The notes beneath the pieces were generated by a model. The model made no database searches. It was given only the letters and a program-made list of their open reading frames with translations, and was not told the DNA's origin. Source: an uncultured Clostridia bacterium (GTDB taxonomy: Bacteria > Bacillota > Clostridia > Christensenellales > Borkfalkiaceae). From it: 64,000 nucleotides of DNA. Location of the stretch: NCBI GenBank assembly GCA_944343275.1, contig CALVMH010000002.1, positions 55,930 to 119,929 of the forward strand, given 5' to 3'. Position numbers and translations under genes: made by a program. This document shows positions 16,953-28,020 of the stretch, one piece after another (positions within the stretch are counted from its first letter, which is position 1; each line of letters begins with the position of its first letter).

Positions 16953-19900
16953 TTATTTTGTTGTAAGCGCCTGGCTTGCTTCCACCGAAACTTCCACCGT
17001 GCGGTCGCCGCAGCGGAAGACGCGCTTGATACTGATGCCGCCGAATTCGGCTTCCCCGTATTTATAATTCCAGCTGTTCATATCTGTCTGGCTGAAATAT
17101 GCCTTTCCTTCGGCAGTATAATCGAGTGAGAACGTATCCCCGAAGTTGAGTTCATCGCGCTTGTCGCCCTTTCCGATGAAATAGCAGCCGCTCATCTCTG
17201 CCGTGAGCCCAAGCGCATCCGAAATCTCACGGGAATATCTGCCGAACACATCGCCGCCCGTCAGATACCCGACAACATTATACCGATACCAGAAAGTCAG
17301 ATATTTGCTCTTATAAACTTCCGTAAACGTCACCGTCATTTCGGAGATCCAGACGGCGACGACGTCCTGCCCGTCGAGCGCGGCAACGTCATCCACGATC
17401 GTCCAGCCCGCCGCGCCCTGCGTGAACCAGGCAAGCAGGCGATACCCTTCCGACTGCGGCGCATAGGTCATGGCGTAATTATCATTGAAGGACATCTCTT
17501 TGACGAACGCGTTCTTGTTCTGATCAAACGAACTGCCTTCGATCTGCACGTCGCTGACAAGCGTCACCGTCACGGTGTTGTCGATCCATTGCAGGCGGAG
17601 CGAACCGAGCAGTGCAACATCGTTGCCGATCTCCGTGACGCGCTCGCCCGCAGCGGTGTAGTAGCCGCCGAAATCAAAGCAGGGCACTTTCAGCGACATG
17701 TCGAGCGCGACGGGCGCGCCGTCATAGACAAAGGAAACTTCCCGCAGATATGTTCCGTCCGCCTGCAAAACATACCCTTCCGCCGCCTCGCTGCTCAGCA
17801 GCCGGACGGTGTATGTGTTCGCCGTATAGACTGCATGGATCGTGACGTCGCCCTGCACCGTAAAGTCTTCGGCGATATCCCATTGTCCCGTGTAGCCCGT
17901 CTTTTCGGGAACGGCGGGCGGCGTCGGGCGGTCGCCGAAGTAATAATTCTGTTCCCCGACCGTCTTCCCTTCCGCAACAAAGACAACGCGATAGCCGACC
18001 GTGCTCCAACGCGCCGTCAGGGTGACGTCCTTTGTGACGGCAGGCATCTGTGTATAGAGCGTACCCTCATACACAAAGCCGTCGAGGAAGCTGCCCTCCT
18101 GCAGGACGGCAGACGGCAAACGATATGTGCTGCCATAGACGTAGTCGAAGGTCATCTCGTACATGCCCGCCGCGTTTTTCGTGAAGCCGTCGATGAAATG
18201 CTCGCTGACGAGGGTCACGGAATACGTTGCGGGCGCATACTGCGCCGTGACGACGGCATCCCCCGTGACCGTTCCGTCCGCGTCCCAGCCGAGGAAATCA
18301 TACCCCGCCTTTTCGGGCGCTTCGGGCGGCGTCAGGCGGTCACCGTAGTGCGCCGTCTGCGTTGCGACCGTCTTGCCGTCTGCGACATAACGGACGGTAT
18401 ACTCCCGCAGTTCCCACTGTGCGCGCAGCGTCAGATCGGAGAAGATGTCTGCGCCGTCGGACGCCGCCGTCAGGCAAACGCCGTCCGCCGCGAATGCGAC
18501 GAGGCTCTCCCGCTCGTTCTGCACAAAGGGCAGCGCAAGCCCCGTACCGTATGTGTACTCCAATCGCATGATCCACAAGCCGCGCGCTTCGTCAAAGACA
18601 AACCCCTCCGCCGCGCGGTCGCTTTCGAGCGTCAGCGTATAGACTTCCGGCGTATAGACGGCATAGACGGAGGTGCTGCCCGTAAGGGACGAGAAATCCT
18701 CCCTGTCCCAGCGCACGGTATAGCCGCGCTTGGAATATGCGGCGAGGTCGGGCAGCGTGACGGCGGAATACGGCTTGCCGTCCGCAATGAGCACGGACTG
18801 TTCGCTGATGACGTTGCCCGCAACGCTGAAACTGACCTTGACGACGGAACCGGAGAAATACCCCTTCTCGTCAATGGCAGCCCAATCCTCTTCCGTGAAG
18901 GAGAACTTTTGCGAGAGGTCCTCCGTTTTGTCCGTCTTATCGCCCCATTCCCCGCAGGGATTGTCGAGCGTCAGATTGGCAACGATGCCGAGGATCCCCT
19001 TGATGTTCGTATCGACATCCAGATCGCGCAGAATGCCCTGCACGGCGCTGAGCGTCACTTTGATGTCCGAGAGCACATCCCCTGTGAGCTTTCCGCCGTT
19101 GAACGAAAGTACCCACTCCGTGCCGTCCGTCTTTTTGTGATATTCGTATTTGGAGAGCACATCGGAGAGAATGGTGCCGTAATCATCCGCCGAGGACGTT
19201 CCCGACCCGCTCCCCGTGCCGCCGCCCATCGCCGATTCGATGATCCCCTTGACGAGGCTGCTGAAATTGAAGATATAGACGAGCTGATCCATGATGGTCG
19301 CCATGAATTTTTCCATGGACATGGCGCGGTACGTCACATCCGTGCCGTTGAGCGTGCGCCGCATGAAAATCTTGCCGCCCGCGATGGTCAGCTCGGTATA
19401 ACCGCTGTCGGCAAACGCAAGCCCCTTGGAATAGGACAGGCGCGCGTTGATGATGACCGCATTGTTCCGATCGAAGGAGAAGGAGAGCCCGTCTACGCCG
19501 ATCTCCACGGCATTGAGGCTTCCGAGACTGAGCGTCGCCTTCCCGCTGATGTGGAACTTGTCGTTCAGAACGTAACTGCCGTTTTCAAGATGGGTCGCGG
19601 TGCGGGCAACGGCTTTGAGAAGTTCGTCCGCACCCTGGAAGGTATATTGCGCGTAATCGGCAAATACGAGCGAATGGCTGCTGCCGCCGAGCGTATACGC
19701 AGCCCCTTCCGCCGTTTCGGTAAAGGGGTGCTCCTCGTAACCGAACGTGAAGGCGACATCGGTCGTTTCGCTGTTGCCGTTCCCGACGATGCCGGAAAGC
19801 CCGATGCCCTGCAACAGCGACGGCGTTCCGCGCTTGGAGAATTTCAGCGTGAGCGGCGCAAACCCGTTTCCGCCGTAGATGAGGTCGGCGTCGAGCTGTA

Positions 19901-22900
19901 CGGTGAACACGATATCCCCCGTCTGTTCATCCCTGGAAACGTTGAGCGCTTTCAGATAGGCGCCGGGGGCGACGGCATCCTCCGACGCATCGCCGACGGC
20001 GCCCGCAAGCCCCGCGAGCAGATCTTCGAGCGCGCTGCGGATGCCCAGCGTATCCATGAGCACGCTGCCCACCGCGCCGAACTGCCCCTTCTCCTCGTCC
20101 GTGAGCACGTCGCCGAGGAAATATTCGTCGAGCACGGCAAAGAGCGCATCCACCGTATCGGCGGGCAGACCCAGCCCCGTCAGGAACGAGGCAAGCGTGC
20201 TCTCCGTCAGCGACACTCCGCCCGCAAGCAGCGTCAGGATGTCGCCCGCGGGGACGCCGAAGCGCAGCGGCACGCCGCCCTCCGCATATTTGGAAATAGA
20301 GACAAAGATGTCAAGTTCTCCGTCGTCCCATGCATCGAACATCCAAAAGTCGAAATACAGATCCGTCCCGTCCGCCGCGATCGCATCCAGGGCGAGGGAG
20401 ACGTGCAGACGCATATCGGGATTGACGGTGATCACGGTGTTCCCCGTATCCACGACAACGATGGGATTCCCGTTCTCCTTTTTGCCCGCATGATAGACGA
20501 GGGACCCGCGGACATCAAACACTTTCTGCGCGCCGTCCGCAGACATGGCTGCGCCGCGGAAGGTGATGGAAACGTCGTCCGAGAACAGCGTCCCCACCGT
20601 GGCGCCCGCAAAGTCGAGCAGTTCCCGCAGGTCGGAAACGGACAGAAGCCCCTCTGCGGGAATGGGCGCGGGAGCCTGTTCCGACGCCGACACGCGGACA
20701 TTGCCGAACTGCCTGACGCCGCCATTTTTCCGTTCGCCGAGCAGCAGCGTCAGCGCATCGCCGTCCGCAAGCAATTCCGCAACATAGTTTTTGAACATGA
20801 TCTGCGCAAGGCTGCCCGCCTTCTGCGTAGCACCGCCGAACGTGACGGACGAGAGGAGCGCAGGAAGGTCCAAAGACGCCATCAGATCGGTAACGGCGCC
20901 GCCCGCGCCGACGAGCGACAGCAGTTCTTCCGCCGTGGCGGGAACGGCGTCCTTGGCGCAGGCATCGAGTTCCGCCGCAATGCGTGCATACACCTCCTCA
21001 AAGGTCTGCGCAAGCCCGCCGAGTTCGTCATAGGCGAGGTCCACGCCCACATCCCCGTACACGATACGTGTGCGCGCGCCGTCCACCCACACGGAGACGG
21101 TCTGTCTGGTCCCGTTCAGCGTGAGGGCAAGATCAAGGGAGAGCTGCAGCTCCTTCCCCCATGCGAGAACGCCGTTCTCCACCTGCACGGTGACGGACGT
21201 CTTGCCCACATAGAGCGTGAACGTGCCGCCGACGGACGCGCGCCCCTCCTGCACGATGCGCACGACGGTGGCAAGCACGGGCGTGAGGTCGGCATACTCT
21301 TCGCCGTTCACGTCGGGCGTGAAGGCGGGCACGGAGGAAAGCCGCACGTCGGCGCCGAGCGCCGAGACCGCCAGCCCGCCGTCTGCGGCGGAGAGGGAAA
21401 TGTCGCCGAGGGCGAAGTCCACGCCGAGCGCGGCAAGCAGTTCGCCGCCCGCGAGAAGAACGGAATTTTCACGCAGTTCGAGCATGGAAGCGAGGTCGAT
21501 GGAGAGCAGCGTCTGCAAGATGCCGCCGAGGTCCGCCTGTGCCGCGCCCGAAAGATCCGTGCCTGCGCCGAGCAGCGCGGAGATCTGCGAAAGCGCTTCG
21601 GCGGCATTCAGCTTCCCCTTCATGCCGTCGAGCGTCAGATATACCCAATGCGTGCCGCCCTGCGCGGGCAGCGTATAAGCAAAGGAGAGCTGTTTTTGCG
21701 CCGCGCCGTCCCCCTTTCCCACGGTGAGCAGGACGTTCCCCTGCACGCTCATGGAGGCAAAATCCAGGACGACGTTCCCCGCAAGGGCGACGGGCGTGCC
21801 GTCCGCGTCCATCGTATAGGCAACATCGGCGCGCAGGGCATCCCCCGCAAACAGGTCATACGCATTGAGAACGAGCCCCGTCATGTCGGCGCTGTCCGAC
21901 ATGTCCTTTGCGGGCACTTCCTCCTGCGCATAGGTAAGTTCCGCCGCGATGTCGACCCCCGCAACGGTGAGTTCCGCCGTGACGCCGTCCAGCGCGATCC
22001 CCGCCTCCCCGACGGTGAACGCGAAGCGCACGGGAATGTCAAGCCCGAGGAGGGAGAGCGTGGAATCCAGCGTCGCGCGGGAACCGTCGCCCGCAACTTC
22101 GAACGCGCCGCCGCCCAGCTGCGCCATAAGCGCGTCGGTATCGAGTTCCACTCCGCCGCCGAGCAGCCCCGCGAGCGCGGAAACGTCCAGGCGCAGCTTG
22201 TTCCCCCCGAGCGCAACGAAGACGTCGCTGCCCGCATAGGAGACATACACTTCCCCGAACTGTGCGCGCAGGGAGAGCGCGGGCATACCGGACGCATCCA
22301 GCGATACCAGCCCCGAAACGGGAACGCCGTCCACCGCAAGCGAGAGCGCAAAGTTGACGGGCTGCGAGAGAACGGGCGCAAACGCCTCTGCAAGGCAATC
22401 CGCCGCCGTCAGCTGTCCGCCTTCGGGCGCGCCCGTTGCGGGTTTGTCGGCATAGTCCTTGAAATAGGTATCAAAGGCGTCGGAGACCGCCTTCGGCGTA
22501 TCATATTCGTAATAGGTGTCGTACTCCGACGTGCATCTTGCGTCCAGCCCCTTGGTCGCGGTGTACGCCTCGTCCACGTGGGAGGAGAGCACCTGCCATG
22601 TCGCATCAAAGGTATAGGTGACGGTGATATATTCGAAGGCGGGAAGTTTGCTCAGTCCCCCCTTCATCATCATCTGATTGACGTAATAGGCGGGCGCCTT
22701 GTCGATCGCGGGATCGAGATAGTAGGTCTGCGTGTACGTCCCGTCCCCGTTCACGGTGACTTCGGAGGCGTCCAAAAGCGTCTCCTCGTTGATGACATAG
22801 ACGGAAAACGACGTTCCGGGAAGTCCGCGCGTCTCCTTGTAGTCCTCGATCGGCATATTGCCGAAGGGCGCCGAAGTCTGCCACTGCGTGTCGATTCCGT

Positions 22901-23429
22901 TGTAGGCGGCGCCCTTTACGGCTTCCCGCCAGAGCACGCGGTCGCCCACCCAGCAGAACTGCTGCGCGGAATTGATGAGGGAGGATGTGGTGATGTCCGT
23001 CTGAATGAGCACGCCGTCCGAATACTGCTTCCACGTGCTCACGCGCTGACTGAGGATGGTGTTGACGCTGCCGTCCATCTCCGAATACCACACGTCCTGT
23101 GCGCAGAAGCGCGCGTTCATGTAGCCGATGTTTTCCAGCGCCGAATGCATGTCGGGCGTCGAACCGTCCGTCGGAAGTTCGTAAAGAACGGTGTCGAACC
23201 CTTCTTTGACCACATTGGGTGCCGCATCGGTGAAAAAGAGCGCGTTGATGCCGAATGCCCCGCCCGCCGCGATAACGCATGCGGAAAGCGCCGCAAGGCT
23301 CTTTTTCAATCTGCGATGCTGCACCGCTTTGAGACGCACCCCTCCCCGTTTTTTGCGCACGGGACGGGGAATATTCTCCCCTTCCAGCTCCGCAAGCCCC
23401 GTGCTTTGTCCTTTCTTTTTGCCTTTCAT
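16953..23429 (-). CDS. Giant membrane-anchored surface protein with InlB-type repeats (2158 residues)
   Basis: The largest gene in the window. A basic cytoplasmic tail of about 45 residues (KKGQS, RKKRGG, RRLKKS) precedes one hydrophobic segment (about 47-69), which suggests a type II anchor; there is no lipobox, LPXTG or C-terminal membrane helix. Residues 70-330 form a domain with a TYTFD-type strand pattern that I cannot name. About 340-1580 is a long array of beta-rich, Ala/Gly/Asp/Leu-rich units that repeat patterns such as VYVSYAGSDVFVALGG. About 1590-2030 holds alternating InlB/Listeria-Bacteroides-type repeats (GYDFLGWDADG, GYTGQWDIAED, LTPPEAPEKAGY). A final beta domain ends in two cysteines' worth of sequence. 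An adhesin or cell-envelope spacer role is inference. Confidence 0.7.
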   Translation of the reverse strand: MKGKKKGQSTGLAELEGENIPRPVRKKRGGVRLKAVQHRRLKKSLAALSACVIAAGGAFGINALFFTDAAPNVVKEGFDTVLYELPTDGSTPDMHSALENIGYMNARFCAQDVWYSEMDGSVNTILSQRVSTWKQYSDGVLIQTDITTSSLINSAQQFCWVGDRVLWREAVKGAAYNGIDTQWQTSAPFGNMPIEDYKETRGLPGTSFSVYVINEETLLDASEVTVNGDGTYTQTYYLDPAIDKAPAYYVNQMMMKGGLSKLPAFEYITVTYTFDATWQVLSSHVDEAYTATKGLDARCTSEYDTYYEYDTPKAVSDAFDTYFKDYADKPATGAPEGGQLTAADCLAEAFAPVLSQPVNFALSLAVDGVPVSGLVSLDASGMPALSLRAQFGEVYVSYAGSDVFVALGGNKLRLDVSALAGLLGGGVELDTDALMAQLGGGAFEVAGDGSRATLDSTLSLLGLDIPVRFAFTVGEAGIALDGVTAELTVAGVDIAAELTYAQEEVPAKDMSDSADMTGLVLNAYDLFAGDALRADVAYTMDADGTPVALAGNVVLDFASMSVQGNVLLTVGKGDGAAQKQLSFAYTLPAQGGTHWVYLTLDGMKGKLNAAEALSQISALLGAGTDLSGAAQADLGGILQTLLSIDLASMLELRENSVLLAGGELLAALGVDFALGDISLSAADGGLAVSALGADVRLSSVPAFTPDVNGEEYADLTPVLATVVRIVQEGRASVGGTFTLYVGKTSVTVQVENGVLAWGKELQLSLDLALTLNGTRQTVSVWVDGARTRIVYGDVGVDLAYDELGGLAQTFEEVYARIAAELDACAKDAVPATAEELLSLVGAGGAVTDLMASLDLPALLSSVTFGGATQKAGSLAQIMFKNYVAELLADGDALTLLLGERKNGGVRQFGNVRVSASEQAPAPIPAEGLLSVSDLRELLDFAGATVGTLFSDDVSITFRGAAMSADGAQKVFDVRGSLVYHAGKKENGNPIVVVDTGNTVITVNPDMRLHVSLALDAIAADGTDLYFDFWMFDAWDDGELDIFVSISKYAEGGVPLRFGVPAGDILTLLAGGVSLTESTLASFLTGLGLPADTVDALFAVLDEYFLGDVLTDEEKGQFGAVGSVLMDTLGIRSALEDLLAGLAGAVGDASEDAVAPGAYLKALNVSRDEQTGDIVFTVQLDADLIYGGNGFAPLTLKFSKRGTPSLLQGIGLSGIVGNGNSETTDVAFTFGYEEHPFTETAEGAAYTLGGSSHSLVFADYAQYTFQGADELLKAVARTATHLENGSYVLNDKFHISGKATLSLGSLNAVEIGVDGLSFSFDRNNAVIINARLSYSKGLAFADSGYTELTIAGGKIFMRRTLNGTDVTYRAMSMEKFMATIMDQLVYIFNFSSLVKGIIESAMGGGTGSGSGTSSADDYGTILSDVLSKYEYHKKTDGTEWVLSFNGGKLTGDVLSDIKVTLSAVQGILRDLDVDTNIKGILGIVANLTLDNPCGEWGDKTDKTEDLSQKFSFTEEDWAAIDEKGYFSGSVVKVSFSVAGNVISEQSVLIADGKPYSAVTLPDLAAYSKRGYTVRWDREDFSSLTGSTSVYAVYTPEVYTLTLESDRAAEGFVFDEARGLWIMRLEYTYGTGLALPFVQNERESLVAFAADGVCLTAASDGADIFSDLTLRAQWELREYTVRYVADGKTVATQTAHYGDRLTPPEAPEKAGYDFLGWDADGTVTGDAVVTAQYAPATYSVTLVSEHFIDGFTKNAAGMYEMTFDYVYGSTYRLPSAVLQEGSFLDGFVYEGTLYTQMPAVTKDVTLTARWSTVGYRVVFVAEGKTVGEQNYYFGDRPTPPAVPEKTGYTGQWDIAEDFTVQGDVTIHAVYTANTYTVRLLSSEAAEGYVLQADGTYLREVSFVYDGAPVALDMSLKVPCFDFGGYYTAAGERVTEIGNDVALLGSLRLQWIDNTVTVTLVSDVQIEGSSFDQNKNAFVKEMSFNDNYAMTYAPQSEGYRLLAWFTQGAAGWTIVDDVAALDGQDVVAVWISEMTVTFTEVYKSKYLTFWYRYNVVGYLTGGDVFGRYSREISDALGLTAEMSGCYFIGKGDKRDELNFGDTFSLDYTAEGKAYFSQTDMNSWNYKYGEAEFGGISIKRVFRCGDRTVEVSVEASQALTTK

Positions 23430-23491
23430 GGTTCACTCTCTCCCGCCGCAGACGCCTTCCGCGGCGACTTGTAACATTTTGATATGACACG

Positions 23492-23692: not shown

Positions 23693-24361
23693 TCAAAGGC
23701 GCATCAGGGCGTCCGTCAGAACGGTCTCCTCCTGCGGATGGGAAAAGAAATCGCGCGGGATGTCCCCGCGGACGGGGAGGTCGAGCACGATGCGTCCCGC
23801 TTTGAGGACGAGGGCGCGCCCCGATAAGACCGCCGCCTCGTGTACGTCGTGTGTGACGAAGACGACGGTCCGCCCGCTCTCCTTCCAGAGCGCGGCGACG
23901 AGCTCCAAGAGCGACTTTTTGAGGGACAGATCGAGCGAAGAAAAGGGCTCGTCCATGAGCAGCGTGTCGTGCGGGTACAAAAATGCCCGTGCGATGGCGA
24001 CGCGCTGCCGCTCGCCCCCGGAAAGCTCGTGCGGGTACGACTTTTCCCGTCCCGCAAGCCCCACGCGCGCGAGCATCTCCCCCGTGCCGTCCCACAGGGT
24101 TTTGGGAAGGACGAAACGGAGGTTCCCCTCCGCCGTGAGGTTGGGCAACAATTTGGGCTGCTGAAAGAGATAGGAGCAGCGCCCGCACCCTTCCGCCTTT
24201 CCCTCAAACGCCGTCTGCCCCGCAATGACGTTCAGAAGCGTCGTCTTGCCCGCGCCGCTCTCGCCGAGCACGGCGCACAGTTCCCCCGTTCCGAGGGAAA
24301 AGGTGACGTCATCCAGCGCAAGGCGGGCGCCGTAACGTTTTGTGACATGTTCGAGGTTCAT
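23693..24361 (-). CDS. ABC transporter ATP-binding protein (SsuB/TauB type)
   Basis: A 222-residue ATPase of a binding-protein-dependent importer. Walker A GESGAGKTT is at 33-41, the signature LSGGERQRVAIARAF and Walker B LLMDEPFSSLD are intact, and the switch histidine is in FVTHDVHEA. ATG 24361 overlaps the permease stop by 4 nt; the longer open frame up to 24631 lies inside the permease gene and is discarded. It is the last gene of the four-gene importer operon. The subfamily fits nitrate/sulfonate/taurine or thiamine-precursor importers; the ligand is unknown. Confidence 0.9.
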   Translation of the reverse strand: MNLEHVTKRYGARLALDDVTFSLGTGELCAVLGESGAGKTTLLNVIAGQTAFEGKAEGCGRCSYLFQQPKLLPNLTAEGNLRFVLPKTLWDGTGEMLARVGLAGREKSYPHELSGGERQRVAIARAFLYPHDTLLMDEPFSSLDLSLKKSLLELVAALWKESGRTVVFVTHDVHEAAVLSGRALVLKAGRIVLDLPVRGDIPRDFFSHPQEETVLTDALMRL

Positions 24362-25104
24362 TTCCGCCACCTCACAATCAAAACATAGGCAAGACGGCAC
24401 AACCCTTCGAGCGCAAAGCCGAGCAGCAGAACAAGCAGGGTGAGCGCCATGAGACGGGGCATTTCGAGATACATCTTTGCATCCTGCATCATGCCGCCGA
24501 TCGAACGGAAGGTGGAGGCGAGCACCTCGCCCGAAATGACGACTTTCAGCCCCAGCGAAAAGATGCCGCCCGCCTGTTTCAGGAACGCGGGCGCGGCAAG
24601 CGGCAGATACATCCGCCCGATGCGCCGCCACAGGGGAACGCGGAAGGCGCGCGTCAGTTCACCGTATGCCTCCCCCGCCTCGTCAAGTGCGGCGAGCGCC
24701 GCCGCGTACACGGCGGGAAAGAGCACAAGCGCCGCAACGATGACGGGCACGGCGGCGGGCGTCGTCCACAAAAGCAGCATTAAAATGACCGCCATGGTGG
24801 GAAGCGTGCGCAGCACGGAGACGACGGGCGCAAAAAAGGCGCGCACCCATCCTTGGACATGCGCCGCCACCGCCATGGCGACGCCGAGCGCGAGGGAGGC
24901 AAGAAACGCCCAGAGCGTGCGCAAAAAGGTGTTGCCGAGCGCGCGCCAAAAGGACGCGCTCGCTAGGAGGCGTCCCGTTTCGCGGCAGGCGTCCCAAAAG
25001 GACGGAAGCACATAATCGTTCTGTACGGCGGCATACGCAATGAGCCATGCAAGCCACAGCGCGACGATGGCAAGCGCAGAAAAGAGCGCGTTCTTTTTGT
25101 TCAT
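24358..25104 (-). CDS. ABC transporter permease (SsuC/TauC type)
   Basis: A 248-residue BPD_transp_1-family permease with about six membrane helices. The EAA-loop region reads ALDEAGEAYGELTRAFRVPLWRRIG, and the LPxxxP-like start ALVLFPAVYAAALAALDEAG is recognisable. It begins 13 bp after the binding-protein gene and overlaps the ATPase gene by 4 nt. It forms the membrane channel of the importer. Confidence 0.9.
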   Translation of the reverse strand: MNKKNALFSALAIVALWLAWLIAYAAVQNDYVLPSFWDACRETGRLLASASFWRALGNTFLRTLWAFLASLALGVAMAVAAHVQGWVRAFFAPVVSVLRTLPTMAVILMLLLWTTPAAVPVIVAALVLFPAVYAAALAALDEAGEAYGELTRAFRVPLWRRIGRMYLPLAAPAFLKQAGGIFSLGLKVVISGEVLASTFRSIGGMMQDAKMYLEMPRLMALTLLVLLLGFALEGLCRLAYVLIVRWRK

Positions 25105-25117
25105 GAAGCCGTTTACA

Positions 25118-26164
25118 TTACTTGCCCGCCGTTGCGGCGATCTTGGCGCTGGCGGCAGGTTCGGGGCAGAGATAGTAATCGCACCCCGAGGCGGGCGTCA
25201 CGTTCTCCGCCTCCATCGCCTTTAAGTTGACCTTATCGGACGCGGGCTGCGTATCGTTCTCCGACACCTGATAGGGAACGCCGTATTTTTCGAGCACGGC
25301 GCGCAGCGTGAGCCCGGGCACGTTGGAAAGCTGCACGACCCCCACCGTCTTGCCGACGAGCGAAGAGAGGTTGTCCTTGGTGAGCGCGGCGCTGTCGCCC
25401 GTCGTCAGGAAAAACATATTGCCGTTCGTCACGACGCCGAGCATCCGATACTTCTCGCCCGTGCCGAGCACCTTCGCGGCGGCGTTGACGGGCATCACGC
25501 AGAAATCCGCGTTCTTTGTGGCGTCCGCATTGGTGACCTGCGCATTGATGGTATCCGACTTGACGATGTGAAAGTCAAACGTCTTCCCTTCGCCCTGCGC
25601 ATGGATGGCGTTGGCGAGGGCGAGCGCGGGCGCGCCGTCGGGCGCATAGACGGTGTAGCTCTTGTCGGACGTTCCCGCATTCACCGTGTCCGTATAATAG
25701 AACGCCGTACTGACGGAAGAGGCGTCGATGTCCGCAAGATAATTGTCGACGCGGGTGCGCGTTGCCTCCTCCGCCGCGGAATGATATTCCACGGAACAGT
25801 TGGCGATGACCTCTTTGGTGAGGGTCTTGGCATTCAGGGAAGGCGTCATGCCCTGCGTGTAGTAGGGCGCGAGGGCGTCGACGACCGCCTTTGCATCGGC
25901 GGAGGCGAGGTATTCCGCACTCCCCTCCATGTAGGAAATAAGAGTGCCGACGGCAGCTGCATCCTCCTCGATGACCGACTCCTTTGCCACCAAAACCGCC
26001 TGCGGGTACCCGTTTTCGCCGTACAGCGCCTGCAAATCCCCCGCCATGCGGAAGGCGTTTGCACCCGTTCCGCCCGACTGTTTGTCGCCATCGCCGCAAG
26101 CGGCGAAGGCAAGGAGCGCCGCACCCGTTATGATCGCCGCACTCACCGCAAAAAACTTCTTCAT
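25118..26164 (-). CDS. ABC importer substrate-binding lipoprotein, apparently circularly permuted
   Basis: A 348-residue exported protein (signal 1-23, lipobox LAFAAC, Cys23) of the NMT1/SsuA-like class. The order of its halves is reversed against the family. Residues 38-157 (FRMAGDLQALYG, GYPQAVLVAK, VIANCSVEY, STAFYY) correspond to what is normally the C-terminal half. Residues 169-345 (SYTVYAPDGAPALALA, FCVMPVNAAAKV, SLVGKTVGVVQL, YYLCPEPAASAKI) correspond to the normal N-terminal half. The protein ends at PEPAA...AGK, the sequence that should precede FRMAGDLQALYG. The frame is intact with GGAGGT ahead of ATG 26164. It follows the TM1266-type gene by 23 bp. The ligand is unknown. Confidence 0.82.
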   Translation of the reverse strand: MKKFFAVSAAIITGAALLAFAACGDGDKQSGGTGANAFRMAGDLQALYGENGYPQAVLVAKESVIEEDAAAVGTLISYMEGSAEYLASADAKAVVDALAPYYTQGMTPSLNAKTLTKEVIANCSVEYHSAAEEATRTRVDNYLADIDASSVSTAFYYTDTVNAGTSDKSYTVYAPDGAPALALANAIHAQGEGKTFDFHIVKSDTINAQVTNADATKNADFCVMPVNAAAKVLGTGEKYRMLGVVTNGNMFFLTTGDSAALTKDNLSSLVGKTVGVVQLSNVPGLTLRAVLEKYGVPYQVSENDTQPASDKVNLKAMEAENVTPASGCDYYLCPEPAASAKIAATAGK

Positions 26165-26187
26165 GAAATGACCTCCGAAAAATTTGT

Positions 26188-26436
26188 TCAATATTGGCTG
26201 AACAGCGTCTTGGCGGTCACGCCGCCGAGCTGTCCGATCTTGCCCGTCAGAGCGTTGATGACGGACGCGGGCGCATCGAGCACCACGCACAGAACGCTGA
26301 CTTTCTTCTCCCGATAGGGAATGCCCATTCTGCCGACGATGTATTCCCCGAATGCGGAAAGGTGGGCATTGAGCCGTTCCGCCGCATGCAGGTCCTCCAC
26401 GATGACCGAAAGAACGGCGATGCGTTTTTCTTCCAT
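26188..26436 (-). CDS. TM1266-family putative regulator (iron-only hydrogenase system type)
   Basis: An 82-residue protein of the TM1266 family, an ACT/NikR-C-like small fold named for its frequent position near [FeFe]-hydrogenase maturation genes. It shows the family pattern RIAVLSVIVED, FGEYIVGRMGIPY, VSVLCVVLDAP and GKIGQLGGVTAKTLFS. Here no hydrogenase gene is near; it leads an ABC importer operon. ATG 26436 sits directly after the T-run of a terminator hairpin whose 3' arm (GGGGAG) is also its ribosome binding site. An in-frame TTG at 26490 preceded by GGAGAG could give an 18-residue basic extension, but the family starts at the ATG. Confidence 0.82.
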   Translation of the reverse strand: MEEKRIAVLSVIVEDLHAAERLNAHLSAFGEYIVGRMGIPYREKKVSVLCVVLDAPASVINALTGKIGQLGGVTAKTLFSQY

Positions 26437-26539
26437 AAAAAATCTCCCCGCCCGAAGCGCAGGGAGAGAAGCACGCCGCACGGCGCGCAAGCTCGCTTGT
26501 TCTCTCCTTTGCGGTCAGAAACTTCTTTCCTCTCAGGCG
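26437..26539 (-). ncRNA. Candidate riboswitch/attenuator leader of the importer operon
   Basis: About 100 nt of 5' leader folds in two exclusive ways on the minus strand. Form 1: GGAGAGAA (26507-26500) pairs with TTCTCTCC (26470-26463), enclosing two hairpins (26499-26488 and 26485-26474) as a three-way junction. Form 2: TCTCCCTGC (26467-26459) pairs with GCGGGGAGA (26451-26443) around a GCTTCGG loop, followed by six T, an intrinsic terminator that also hides the ribosome binding site. The arms share 26463-26467. I could not match the junction to a known riboswitch class. Confidence 0.65.
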
Positions 26540-26608: not shown

Positions 26609-27949
26609 TTACGGCATGCGGCGGTATGCCTTGCCGTTCAGCAGCAGGATCATTTTGACGGCTGCGATCGAAAAGTCGTCCGCCTCCACTTCGAGCGTCT
26701 TGTTGAGCACGCCGCGGGCAAGCACTTTGACGGCAGTCGCCTTCCTGTCGAAGAAGGGAATGCGCTCACGCATCTCTTCGATGGTGACCCGCTCCCCGTC
26801 CGCAAAGTATTGTCCGAGCGTATCGATGTTGACGATGGTCTGGCGGTAACGGTCGCTGCGCGCCGCGGCATCGAGCACCAGCGCCTCGTCATCCGTCATC
26901 AGCTGCTCCGCCGCCGCCACGCTGACGCGGTGCTCCGCCGCGGGATCGGGCAGGGACGCGGGCGGTTCCGCCGCGCTCTCCTCCGCTTCGGCGGCTTCGG
27001 GGATTTCGTCCTCTTCCTCATCTGCGGGCTCGTCTTCGGGGAAGTCCGTCCCGCCCGCGCCGTCCGTGCGGCGGCGCACTTCGACGATGCGCACAAGCCC
27101 CCGTTCGATGAGCGCGGCGGTCTCTTCATAGGGAATGTCCTCCGCATCAAGATACGCTTCTCCGCGCTCCCCGCCCGCACGCGCGATCGCCTCGGCGATG
27201 AGTTCTTTGGCATAGCGGCAGCGCCTGTCGTTTTTGATGCGGTACAAAAGGGGCGTCTTTTCGAACTTTGCGTGTTCGGACGCATCCTCGACGAGGTACT
27301 TGCCGCCCTCATAGGCGGCGGGATCGAGCGCGAGATAGAGGCGCAGCGTCTTTCCGCGGATGACGAGCTTTGCGACCGGTCCTCTGCCGAGGCGGAACGC
27401 CTCGTGCTGCCAGCTGCGCCGCGCGGACACTTTTTTGTAGGAGAGCAGCTCCTCTTTCAGCGCCCGATACCACGCCTTCACCTGTGCGCTGCTTTGAATG
27501 AGCTTTGCCTCAAAGCTCTTATCATAGCGCACGCGCACATACCAACCGTCCTCCTCCGCATAGATCACGCGCGTCGGCTGCGCATCCGCGTCTGCTGGAA
27601 CGTCTGTGGAAGGCGCGTCCGCCGCAGATACGGGAACGGACAAGGCCGCCGCCCCTTTTGCGTTCTCCTGCACGGCAAGAGGCGGTGCGGCTTGTTCGTT
27701 TGCAGGCTCCTCTGCGGAACGCGCCGCAGACAATGTTTCCGCTAACACCACTTCTTCGGAAGCCGTCTCCTCCGGCATTTCTTCGGGCGCCGCCTCTTTC
27801 GCAGGCACCGTTTCTTCGGGCGTTTCCGCTTCGTTCTTTTTTCCGCGCGAAAAGACGATTCCGAGCACCGCCAACAGCACGATGAGACCGCCGCCGGCAG
27901 CCAGCAGCGCGATATGCAGCGGGGTAAGTGCAAGCAAATTCCAAAGCAT
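26609..27949 (-). CDS. Membrane-anchored protein with uL15-like C-terminal domain
   Basis: A 446-residue protein of unknown function. One membrane helix (about 10-32) is followed by a roughly 110-residue acidic Pro/Ala/Glu linker. A middle domain of about 170 residues (WYVRVRYDKSFEAKLIQSS, LVIRGKTLRLYLALDP, CRYAKELIAEAI) recurs in Clostridia, but I cannot name it. After a second acidic linker, residues 371-446 (VNIDTLGQYFADGERV, TAVKVLARGVLNKTLEVEA) closely follow the C-terminal fold of ribosomal protein L15. Such proteins are sometimes labelled uL15 family, but the anchor and linkers rule out a ribosomal role as such. It has its own promoter and ends 173 bp before the importer leader. Confidence 0.72.
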   Translation of the reverse strand: MLWNLLALTPLHIALLAAGGGLIVLLAVLGIVFSRGKKNEAETPEETVPAKEAAPEEMPEETASEEVVLAETLSAARSAEEPANEQAAPPLAVQENAKGAAALSVPVSAADAPSTDVPADADAQPTRVIYAEEDGWYVRVRYDKSFEAKLIQSSAQVKAWYRALKEELLSYKKVSARRSWQHEAFRLGRGPVAKLVIRGKTLRLYLALDPAAYEGGKYLVEDASEHAKFEKTPLLYRIKNDRRCRYAKELIAEAIARAGGERGEAYLDAEDIPYEETAALIERGLVRIVEVRRRTDGAGGTDFPEDEPADEEEDEIPEAAEAEESAAEPPASLPDPAAEHRVSVAAAEQLMTDDEALVLDAAARSDRYRQTIVNIDTLGQYFADGERVTIEEMRERIPFFDRKATAVKVLARGVLNKTLEVEADDFSIAAVKMILLLNGKAYRRMP

Positions 27950-27991
27950 GGCAGATCCCTCCTTGATGCGTTTTTCAGGATTGTACCATCT

Positions 27992-28020
27992 ATTATAGCA
28001 CACCGACGCGCCGTACGCAA
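27992..28020 (-). promoter_or_regulatory. Promoter of the uL15-like membrane protein gene
   Basis: TTGCGT (28020-28015), 17-bp spacer, TATAAT (27997-27992) on the minus strand; AAGGAGGG precedes the ATG. Confidence 0.65.

Follow-up and report, generated by a model that had tools for sequence, protein, structure and literature searches.

A permuted binding protein in an ABC importer operon

A gene in the analysed window (the whole stretch of DNA, 64,000 nucleotides long, from an uncultured Clostridia bacterium) very probably encodes a type II (NMT1/SsuA/TauA-like), lipid-anchored substrate-binding protein of an ABC importer whose chain is circularly permuted, the same operon gene having been permuted repeatedly at three loops. 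The gene lies on the minus strand, which the preliminary description of this DNA did not state (Table 1). The frame is open over its full length and carries a lipoprotein signal and a GGAGGT ahead of the ATG, bearing out the earlier view of a complete, real gene; the signal ends LAFAAC, making Cys 23 the lipobox cysteine. Re-reading of the translation returned the same swapped motif order as before, namely FRMAGDLQALYG, YPQAVLVAK, ANCSVEY, AFYY, the linker, SYTVYAPDGAPALA, VMPVNAAAK, VGKTVGVV and PEPAASAK, where the chain ends. The linker had been put at 10 residues and has to be corrected: 11 residues were counted between AFYY and SYTVYAPDG, or 12 from FYY to the tyrosine that precedes TVYAPDG.

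Table 1 Features of the permuted gene and its operon in the window
Feature	Position	Strand	Basis
Permuted substrate-binding lipoprotein gene, type P1	25118..26164	-	348 aa + stop; translation, profile scores
Ribosome binding site GGAGGT	26171..26176	-	Upstream of ATG, read in sequence
Lipoprotein signal peptide and lipobox cysteine, residues 1-23	26096..26164	-	Translation; lipobox pattern in 22/22 P1
Canonical C-terminal half, first in P1, residues 37-157	25694..26056	-	Half comparison; canonical profile positions 181-306
Linker, old C- to old N-terminus, residues 158-169	25658..25693	-	12 aa, FYY to next Y
Canonical N-terminal half, last in P1, residues 170-348	25121..25657	-	Half comparison; canonical profile positions 3-181
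ABC permease, same operon	24358..25104	-	Pfam PF00528 45.3 bits; adjoins canonical and permuted forms
ABC ATPase, same operon	23693..24367	-	PF00005 87 bits; start estimated
TM1266-like regulator, upstream	26188..26490	-	Pfam PF21699 95.9 bits; TIGR03959 over cut-off

Linear profiles detect only part of a circularly permuted protein. A profile of 308 positions was built from canonical relatives only (100 rows), and proteins were scored against it in native and in rotated order. 

In native order the best piece of the window protein scored 257 bits over positions 3-181, half of the model, and a second piece of 119 bits, covering positions 181-306, was located before it in the chain. Rotation, scanned in steps of three residues, raised the score to 381 bits over the whole model with the best start at residue 163; the four top rotations begin at residues 157-166, within the linker or immediately ahead of it, and the twelve top ones at 139-172. 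Two strong pieces in swapped order, together with best rotations that fall at the linker, argue against a chance order, and the profile comparison proposed in the preliminary description thus came out in favour of the rotated halves. Scoring of trimmed sequences gave a rise from 257 to 385 bits (384.9, model positions 3-306). Canonical proteins, the same rows that built the profile, reached a median of 364 bits in native order, with a second piece in 0 of 100. Both parts of the window protein are homologous to the canonical protein, stand in exchanged order and give full coverage, as in a circular permutant.

The chain order is also reflected in structure predictions. AlphaFold2 run on 13 rows gave a confident best model of the window protein (pLDDT 91.6, pTM 0.90), the five models having pLDDT values of 91.6, 90.0, 90.0, 50.5 and 50.3, and the canonical relative L033 (9 rows) was modelled at a best pLDDT of 91.0 and a pTM of 0.90. 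Judged by these models, the permutant would keep the canonical fold, with its elements in rotated order relative to the canonical model. A Foldseek search of the PDB with the canonical relative returned 815 matches at E<=0.001, over nearly its whole length, with 3hn0 at the top (TM-score 0.73-0.75 by query length) and SsuA, TauA and Thi5 among the best 50. The permutant returned one match at E<=0.001 with a TM-score of 0.24, as expected from a sequential aligner; this search of the PDB thus shows no solved structure with the P1 chain order. A sequence search of solved structures with the window protein gave a single match at E 0.74, which we took as chance. Three lines of evidence uphold the circular permutation itself and the joining of the old termini through a linker: the profile scores, the canonical relatives that occupy this operon slot within the genus, and the confident best model.

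As to an NMT1/SsuA-like family, the predicted fold of the canonical relative matches SsuA, TauA and Thi5; the window protein itself, in linear order, falls just under the Pfam cut-off for NMT1 (PF09084; residues 207-298, 19.3 bits against 20.5). Canonical relatives behave similarly with this model, L008 scoring 14.8 bits and L007 and L033 giving no match.

Canonical and permuted forms in one operon slot

Around canonical and permuted genes the order is TM1266-like regulator, binding protein, permease and ATPase. In 33 contexts (18 permuted, 15 canonical), the permease lies downstream in all 33 and TM1266 upstream in 29; across 80 loci of all three permuted types and the canonical form, from the window's and other families and with some loci being the same gene, the corresponding counts are 79 and 70. 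The ATPase went undetected at a good number of loci, partly owing to short flanks. The canonical and permuted forms are orthologous, as they occupy the same operon slot. In the window, the open frame of the ATPase runs to 24631 and the PF00005 match begins at residue 106 of this long frame, while the true start of the TM1266-like regulator is probably an internal ATG.

The preliminary description had suggested looking for the same order in related genomes. We searched 103 genomes of the genus, 95 of which matched at E 1e-10, and found the window's order in 18 of the 95, each with a single match through both halves and no other match. The remaining genomes matched in pieces or partly, and every sequence read among them has the N-half followed by the C-half; one match, a partial one, was obtained from each of G017, G103 and G110. 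L031 and L032 are contigs of G074 and G116, respectively, and were each counted once. The genus clade of the gene tree holds at least 36 canonical rows (including L033, which has no genus code) and 18 P1 rows. Canonical relatives in the genus are about 50-69% identical to the window protein in the N-half and 37-64% in the C-half. Two weak matches to query residues 1-162, L062 (G013:C80:9433-9885) and L063 (G017:C35:11098-11580), lie on rpoB contigs and are not recognised by the half profiles.

By eye, the linker measures 12 residues in 18 of 18 permuted proteins of the genus. Bounded by the profiles, it measures 7 residues in 17 proteins and 1 in the remaining one, which we take to be the window protein, with a C-half 6 residues shorter. 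Compared with its closest relatives, the window protein lacks 6 residues a little ahead of AFYY, at about position 25726 of the window.

Three cut sites across the order

A search of 396 genomes of the order yielded 193 with matches, and at least 10 of the matches listed outside the genus hinted at a permuted order. Reading ten such rows confirmed nine as permuted and revealed two further cut sites; the tenth, from G157, was dropped since its sequence reads as canonical. Sorted by the order of their halves, 178 distinct reading frames comprise 100 canonical, 22 P1 (the window's type), 52 P2 and 4 P3 sequences. Scoring by script had given 50 P2 and 6 P3, and L175, which meets a contig end, and L176, which has an in-frame stop, were reassigned from P3 to P2.

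P2 proteins are cut near position 135 of the N-half profile, beginning at the DKVNLVA strand and ending past the strand after the VPGLT helix, and their linkers differ in length and sequence. Among 398 genomes of the family, at least 50 gave a P2 match over almost the whole query, and two further P2 genes are cut by a contig end or carry an in-frame stop. In P3 proteins the cut follows the GNLY strand, between N-half profile positions 89 and 94. Genus g75 has this type in 4 of its 7 genomes and the canonical form in the remaining 3. Outside the window's genus, P1 was found in L139 and L140 (g38), L143 (g87) and L231 (g28), the last with a run of N within its C-half. Two side observations concern P2: the gene L176 (G600:C84:17933-18826) has its in-frame stop as TAG, and one draft with a listed contamination of 6% holds two P2 matches of identical score (G669:C23:23913-24929 and G669:C29:68186-69202), which are possibly duplicate contigs.

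Against the canonical-only profile, rotated scores exceeded native ones in 22/22 P1, 50/51 P2 and 4/4 P3 proteins, the sole P2 without a gain being L175. Median scores of trimmed sequences rose from 232 to 377 bits for P1, from 181 to 349 for P2 and from 173 to 273 for P3, with gains under 2 bits in L166 and L172.

When placed on the canonical model of L033, the P1 cut falls between helix 173-180 and strand 185-189, the P2 cut between strands 133-136 and 147-152, and the P3 cut between strand 85-89 and helix 101-104, so that in this predicted structure all three sites are loops. The new termini of the window protein had been located in the crossover between the lobes; in the canonical model they fall in the loop that follows the PEPAA helix, and on the strength of family knowledge we take this loop, which leads to the next strand, to be that crossover.

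Number of origins

A gene tree of 177 rotated rows (L176 dropped) requires 15 changes of order. Its starred branches force at least 12 changes between canonical and non-canonical order, with 4 for P1, 7 for P2 and 2 for P3. Permuted rows group with canonical ones in several places: P1 L231 with canonical L148, both of g28 (support 100/100), P1 L139 and L140 with canonical L203 and L210 (100/87), and P2 L217 and L218 within a clade of canonical g29 and g98 rows (100/99). The placement of long rows, including the permuted L142, L143 and L146, is unsure.

Because recombination could mimic repeated origins, four segments were compared separately, using one representative per clade. For P1 of g1, g28 and g38 and for P2 L219, all four segments are closer to a canonical sequence than to any permutant of the same type from another clade, and for P1 of g87 this holds for three segments, with one tie. 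P3 forms a single clade with no second one to compare, and its nearest canonical sequences, all from g75, are 57-79% identical by segment. P2 of g28 and g29 is mixed, the Nb segment siding with other P2, and P2 of g26, g27 and g153 goes with P2 in several segments; a shared origin with recombination is possible, on these sequence comparisons, for P2 of g26, g27, g28, g29 and g153. From these comparisons about six origins are well supported, three or four of P1, two of P2 and one of P3, and up to fifteen changes of order are possible. The canonical order is probably ancestral; in a sample of the class (291 genomes), 6 genomes outside the order matched, 2 in canonical order and 4 with the N-half only.

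We consider it unlikely that each type arose once, long ago, and was scattered over the gene tree by recombination and differential loss. Such a history would fit the recurrence of identical cut sites in distant genera, the several P2 clades in which at least one segment goes with other P2, and the scatter of the genus P1 gene over the RpoB and RpoC tree described below. It is at odds with the P1 genes of three genera and P2 L219, which side with canonical sequences in all four segments, with the P2 linkers, which differ in length and sequence, and with the single match in 18/18 P1 genomes, in which no second, canonical copy was seen. Repeated permutation is the reading we prefer.

A single origin is probable for the permuted gene inside the genus of the window. 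In the binding-protein tree without far outgroups, 18/18 P1 sequences lie on one side of a branch with support 95/82, requiring one change, and other tree builds recover one genus P1 clade at 94/92 and 81/41. With three distant outgroups, P1 is not one clade and two changes are needed (3 for the N-half and 2 for the C-half in quick trees), and a single P1 clade in the genus is not rejected (AU p 0.249). In a tree of RpoB and RpoC from 40 genus genomes (16 permuted, 24 canonical), the permuted genomes are scattered and 10 changes are needed, 8 of them forced; a tree of permease and ATPase needs 6, with 3 forced, and the TM1266 tree gives no resolution (13 changes against 14.4 when shuffled). 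The scatter over the RpoB and RpoC tree, set against one change in the binding-protein tree, suggests that the permuted gene moved between species or that the two forms were sorted differently.

Constraint on the permuted genes

In 96 columns the 36 canonical genus proteins agree at 90% or more. The 18 P1 proteins show the canonical residue at 90% or more in 75 of these columns, and in 18 of the other 21 it is still the commonest residue in P1. For the 41 most conserved columns of the canonical set, the same residue is found at 70% or more in 40 columns for P1, 40 for P2 and 35 for P3. Values of dN/dS (NG86) range from 0.09 to 0.31 in six P1 pairs and from 0.09 to 0.20 in three P2 pairs, with 0.15 and 0.19 in two canonical ones. 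The kept residues and a dN/dS well below 1 indicate a gene under selection, and the selected role is presumably that of the binding protein of the adjacent transporter.

These data bear on the idea that the gene is an assembly chimera or a dead, rearranged pseudogene. In its favour, genome G000 is a draft of 92 contigs and the genus relatives are drafts too. We reject this explanation as extremely improbable, since the same order recurs in 18 genomes of the genus, each with one match through both halves, the linker length is constant by eye, the conserved residues are kept and dN/dS is well below 1.

Route and consequences of permutation

The 12-residue linker of the permuted protein joins the old C- and N-termini, and the new termini lie in the loop that follows the PEPAA helix. 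As the likely route we envisage a tandem duplication of the binding-protein gene, then an in-frame fusion of the copies in which the inner signal peptide was lost, and finally trimming at both ends. In the window's genus, the permuted gene has probably since passed between species or followed another sorting than the remainder of the genome. By eye, the linker of L231 resembles the old C-terminal tail and the post-lipobox spacer of L148, its sister, joined without the inner signal peptide, as would be expected after duplication, fusion and trimming. Intermediates of duplication or of fission were looked for in 210 reading frames and not found, and the spacing between binding protein and permease holds no leftover pattern. 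Two candidate relics were set aside: an N-half overlap of 15-16 positions in three P2 frames (L166, L172 and L177) is the signal peptide region in L166 and L177, and the likeness by eye of P1 C-terminal tails (such as AFKAQQS) to the canonical junction PFKAAGS is too short to count.

Splitting of the gene into two half-genes and their re-fusion in the other order is a known model of permutation (PMC3320104). We judge it improbable here, because no single-half frame of at least 200 aa occurs among the 210 reading frames and the three cut sites would need one split each. Duplication, fusion and trimming remains our preferred route.

The permuted protein should bind its ligand and deliver it to the adjacent permease like its canonical relatives, but its lipid anchor would sit elsewhere on the fold. 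The lipobox pattern is N-terminal in 22/22 P1, 99/100 canonical and 42/50 P2 proteins, and with the forms keeping an N-terminal lipoprotein signal by this pattern, rotation moves the anchor point. A role for tethering has been proposed for the permuted TpMglB-2 (PMC4990184). Permutation might accordingly be adaptive, moving the lipid anchor or freeing a lobe and so changing permease docking or reach from the membrane; this is a tentative idea that we hold to be rather doubtful, as the same facts can be accounted for by neutral drift through loops that tolerate cuts. In its boldest form, which we offer as speculation of similarly low likelihood, one orthologous operon gene would have switched chain order at least a dozen times within this bacterial order, at three tolerant loops, selected through relocation of anchor and termini that tunes permease docking.

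Relation to known permuted proteins

Permuted binding proteins are already known; what is new here is the recency, the orthology and the repetition. ProX and OpuAC are binding proteins related by permutation. The permuted forms of DNA methyltransferases represent classes of enzyme and are not known as switches of a single operon gene inside one genus. SsuA, TauA and THI5-like proteins share the fold of the canonical relative (best solved match 3hn0, BDI_1369) and differ from the permutant in chain order, the permutant having no good sequential match.

The nearest parallel is TpMglB-2 (Tp0684), a circularly permuted glucose-binding lipoprotein for which a Type Ic / Cluster Bc was proposed; its authors report 13% identity between the permuted parts and leave the origin open (PMC4990184). 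It is likewise a natural permutation of a lipid-anchored ABC binding protein, with its function kept. Unlike TpMglB-2, which has a type I sugar-binding fold and another cut, the system described here has three cut sites and canonical relatives in the same operon slot. Membership in the Type Ic / Cluster Bc group was considered and rejected, no MglB being among the best 50 of the 815 solved matches of the canonical relative. In the CPSARST report (PMC2395249), glycine betaine-binding and molybdate-binding proteins and CysB are related by permutation of structure, as are the proteins here; those pairs share less than 24% identity, were found by structure comparison and, unlike here, are not orthologues in one operon. 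DNA methyltransferases, for which PMC3320104 describes permuted forms, general permutation models and intermediates, resemble our case in permutation within one protein family and in the duplication model.

The open-access literature searched gave no report of a permuted NMT1/SsuA-type family, nor of repeated permutation of one orthologous operon or binding-protein gene. In the published permuted binding proteins that we found, parent and permutant are far apart, leaving the route and the cost of permutation unreadable. Near relatives built of the same parts, arranged in different orders, form natural comparison sets, and canonical and permuted relatives in one genus and slot, with three recurring cut sites, amount to replicated natural experiments. 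Such a system can show how permutation arises, which loops tolerate cuts and whether anchor position matters for ABC import.

Ligand and neighbouring genes

Assignment of a ligand by subfamily was attempted with NCBIfam equivalogs, which lie far under their cut-offs for both binding protein and permease; SaoB (NF040727) scored 15.4 bits against a cut-off of 140 for the window protein, and SaoP 63.3 bits against 295 for the permease, and both names were rejected. No Rfam match over the gathering score was found within the window, so a riboswitch gave no ligand clue.

Downstream of the ATPase, the minus strand encodes at 16953-23429 a protein of 2158 aa whose repeated segments look InlB-like by eye, and partial relatives of it occur near the same operon in several genomes. 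Antisense to this gene runs a 1961-aa open frame (17589-23474, plus strand), probably a composition effect. Upstream of the operon, a 464-aa protein (26609-28003, minus strand) matches Ribosomal_L27A (L15/L18e) in its C-terminal part at 33.1 bits, the Pfam cut-off being 21.5, and shows by eye a hydrophobic segment at its N-terminus.
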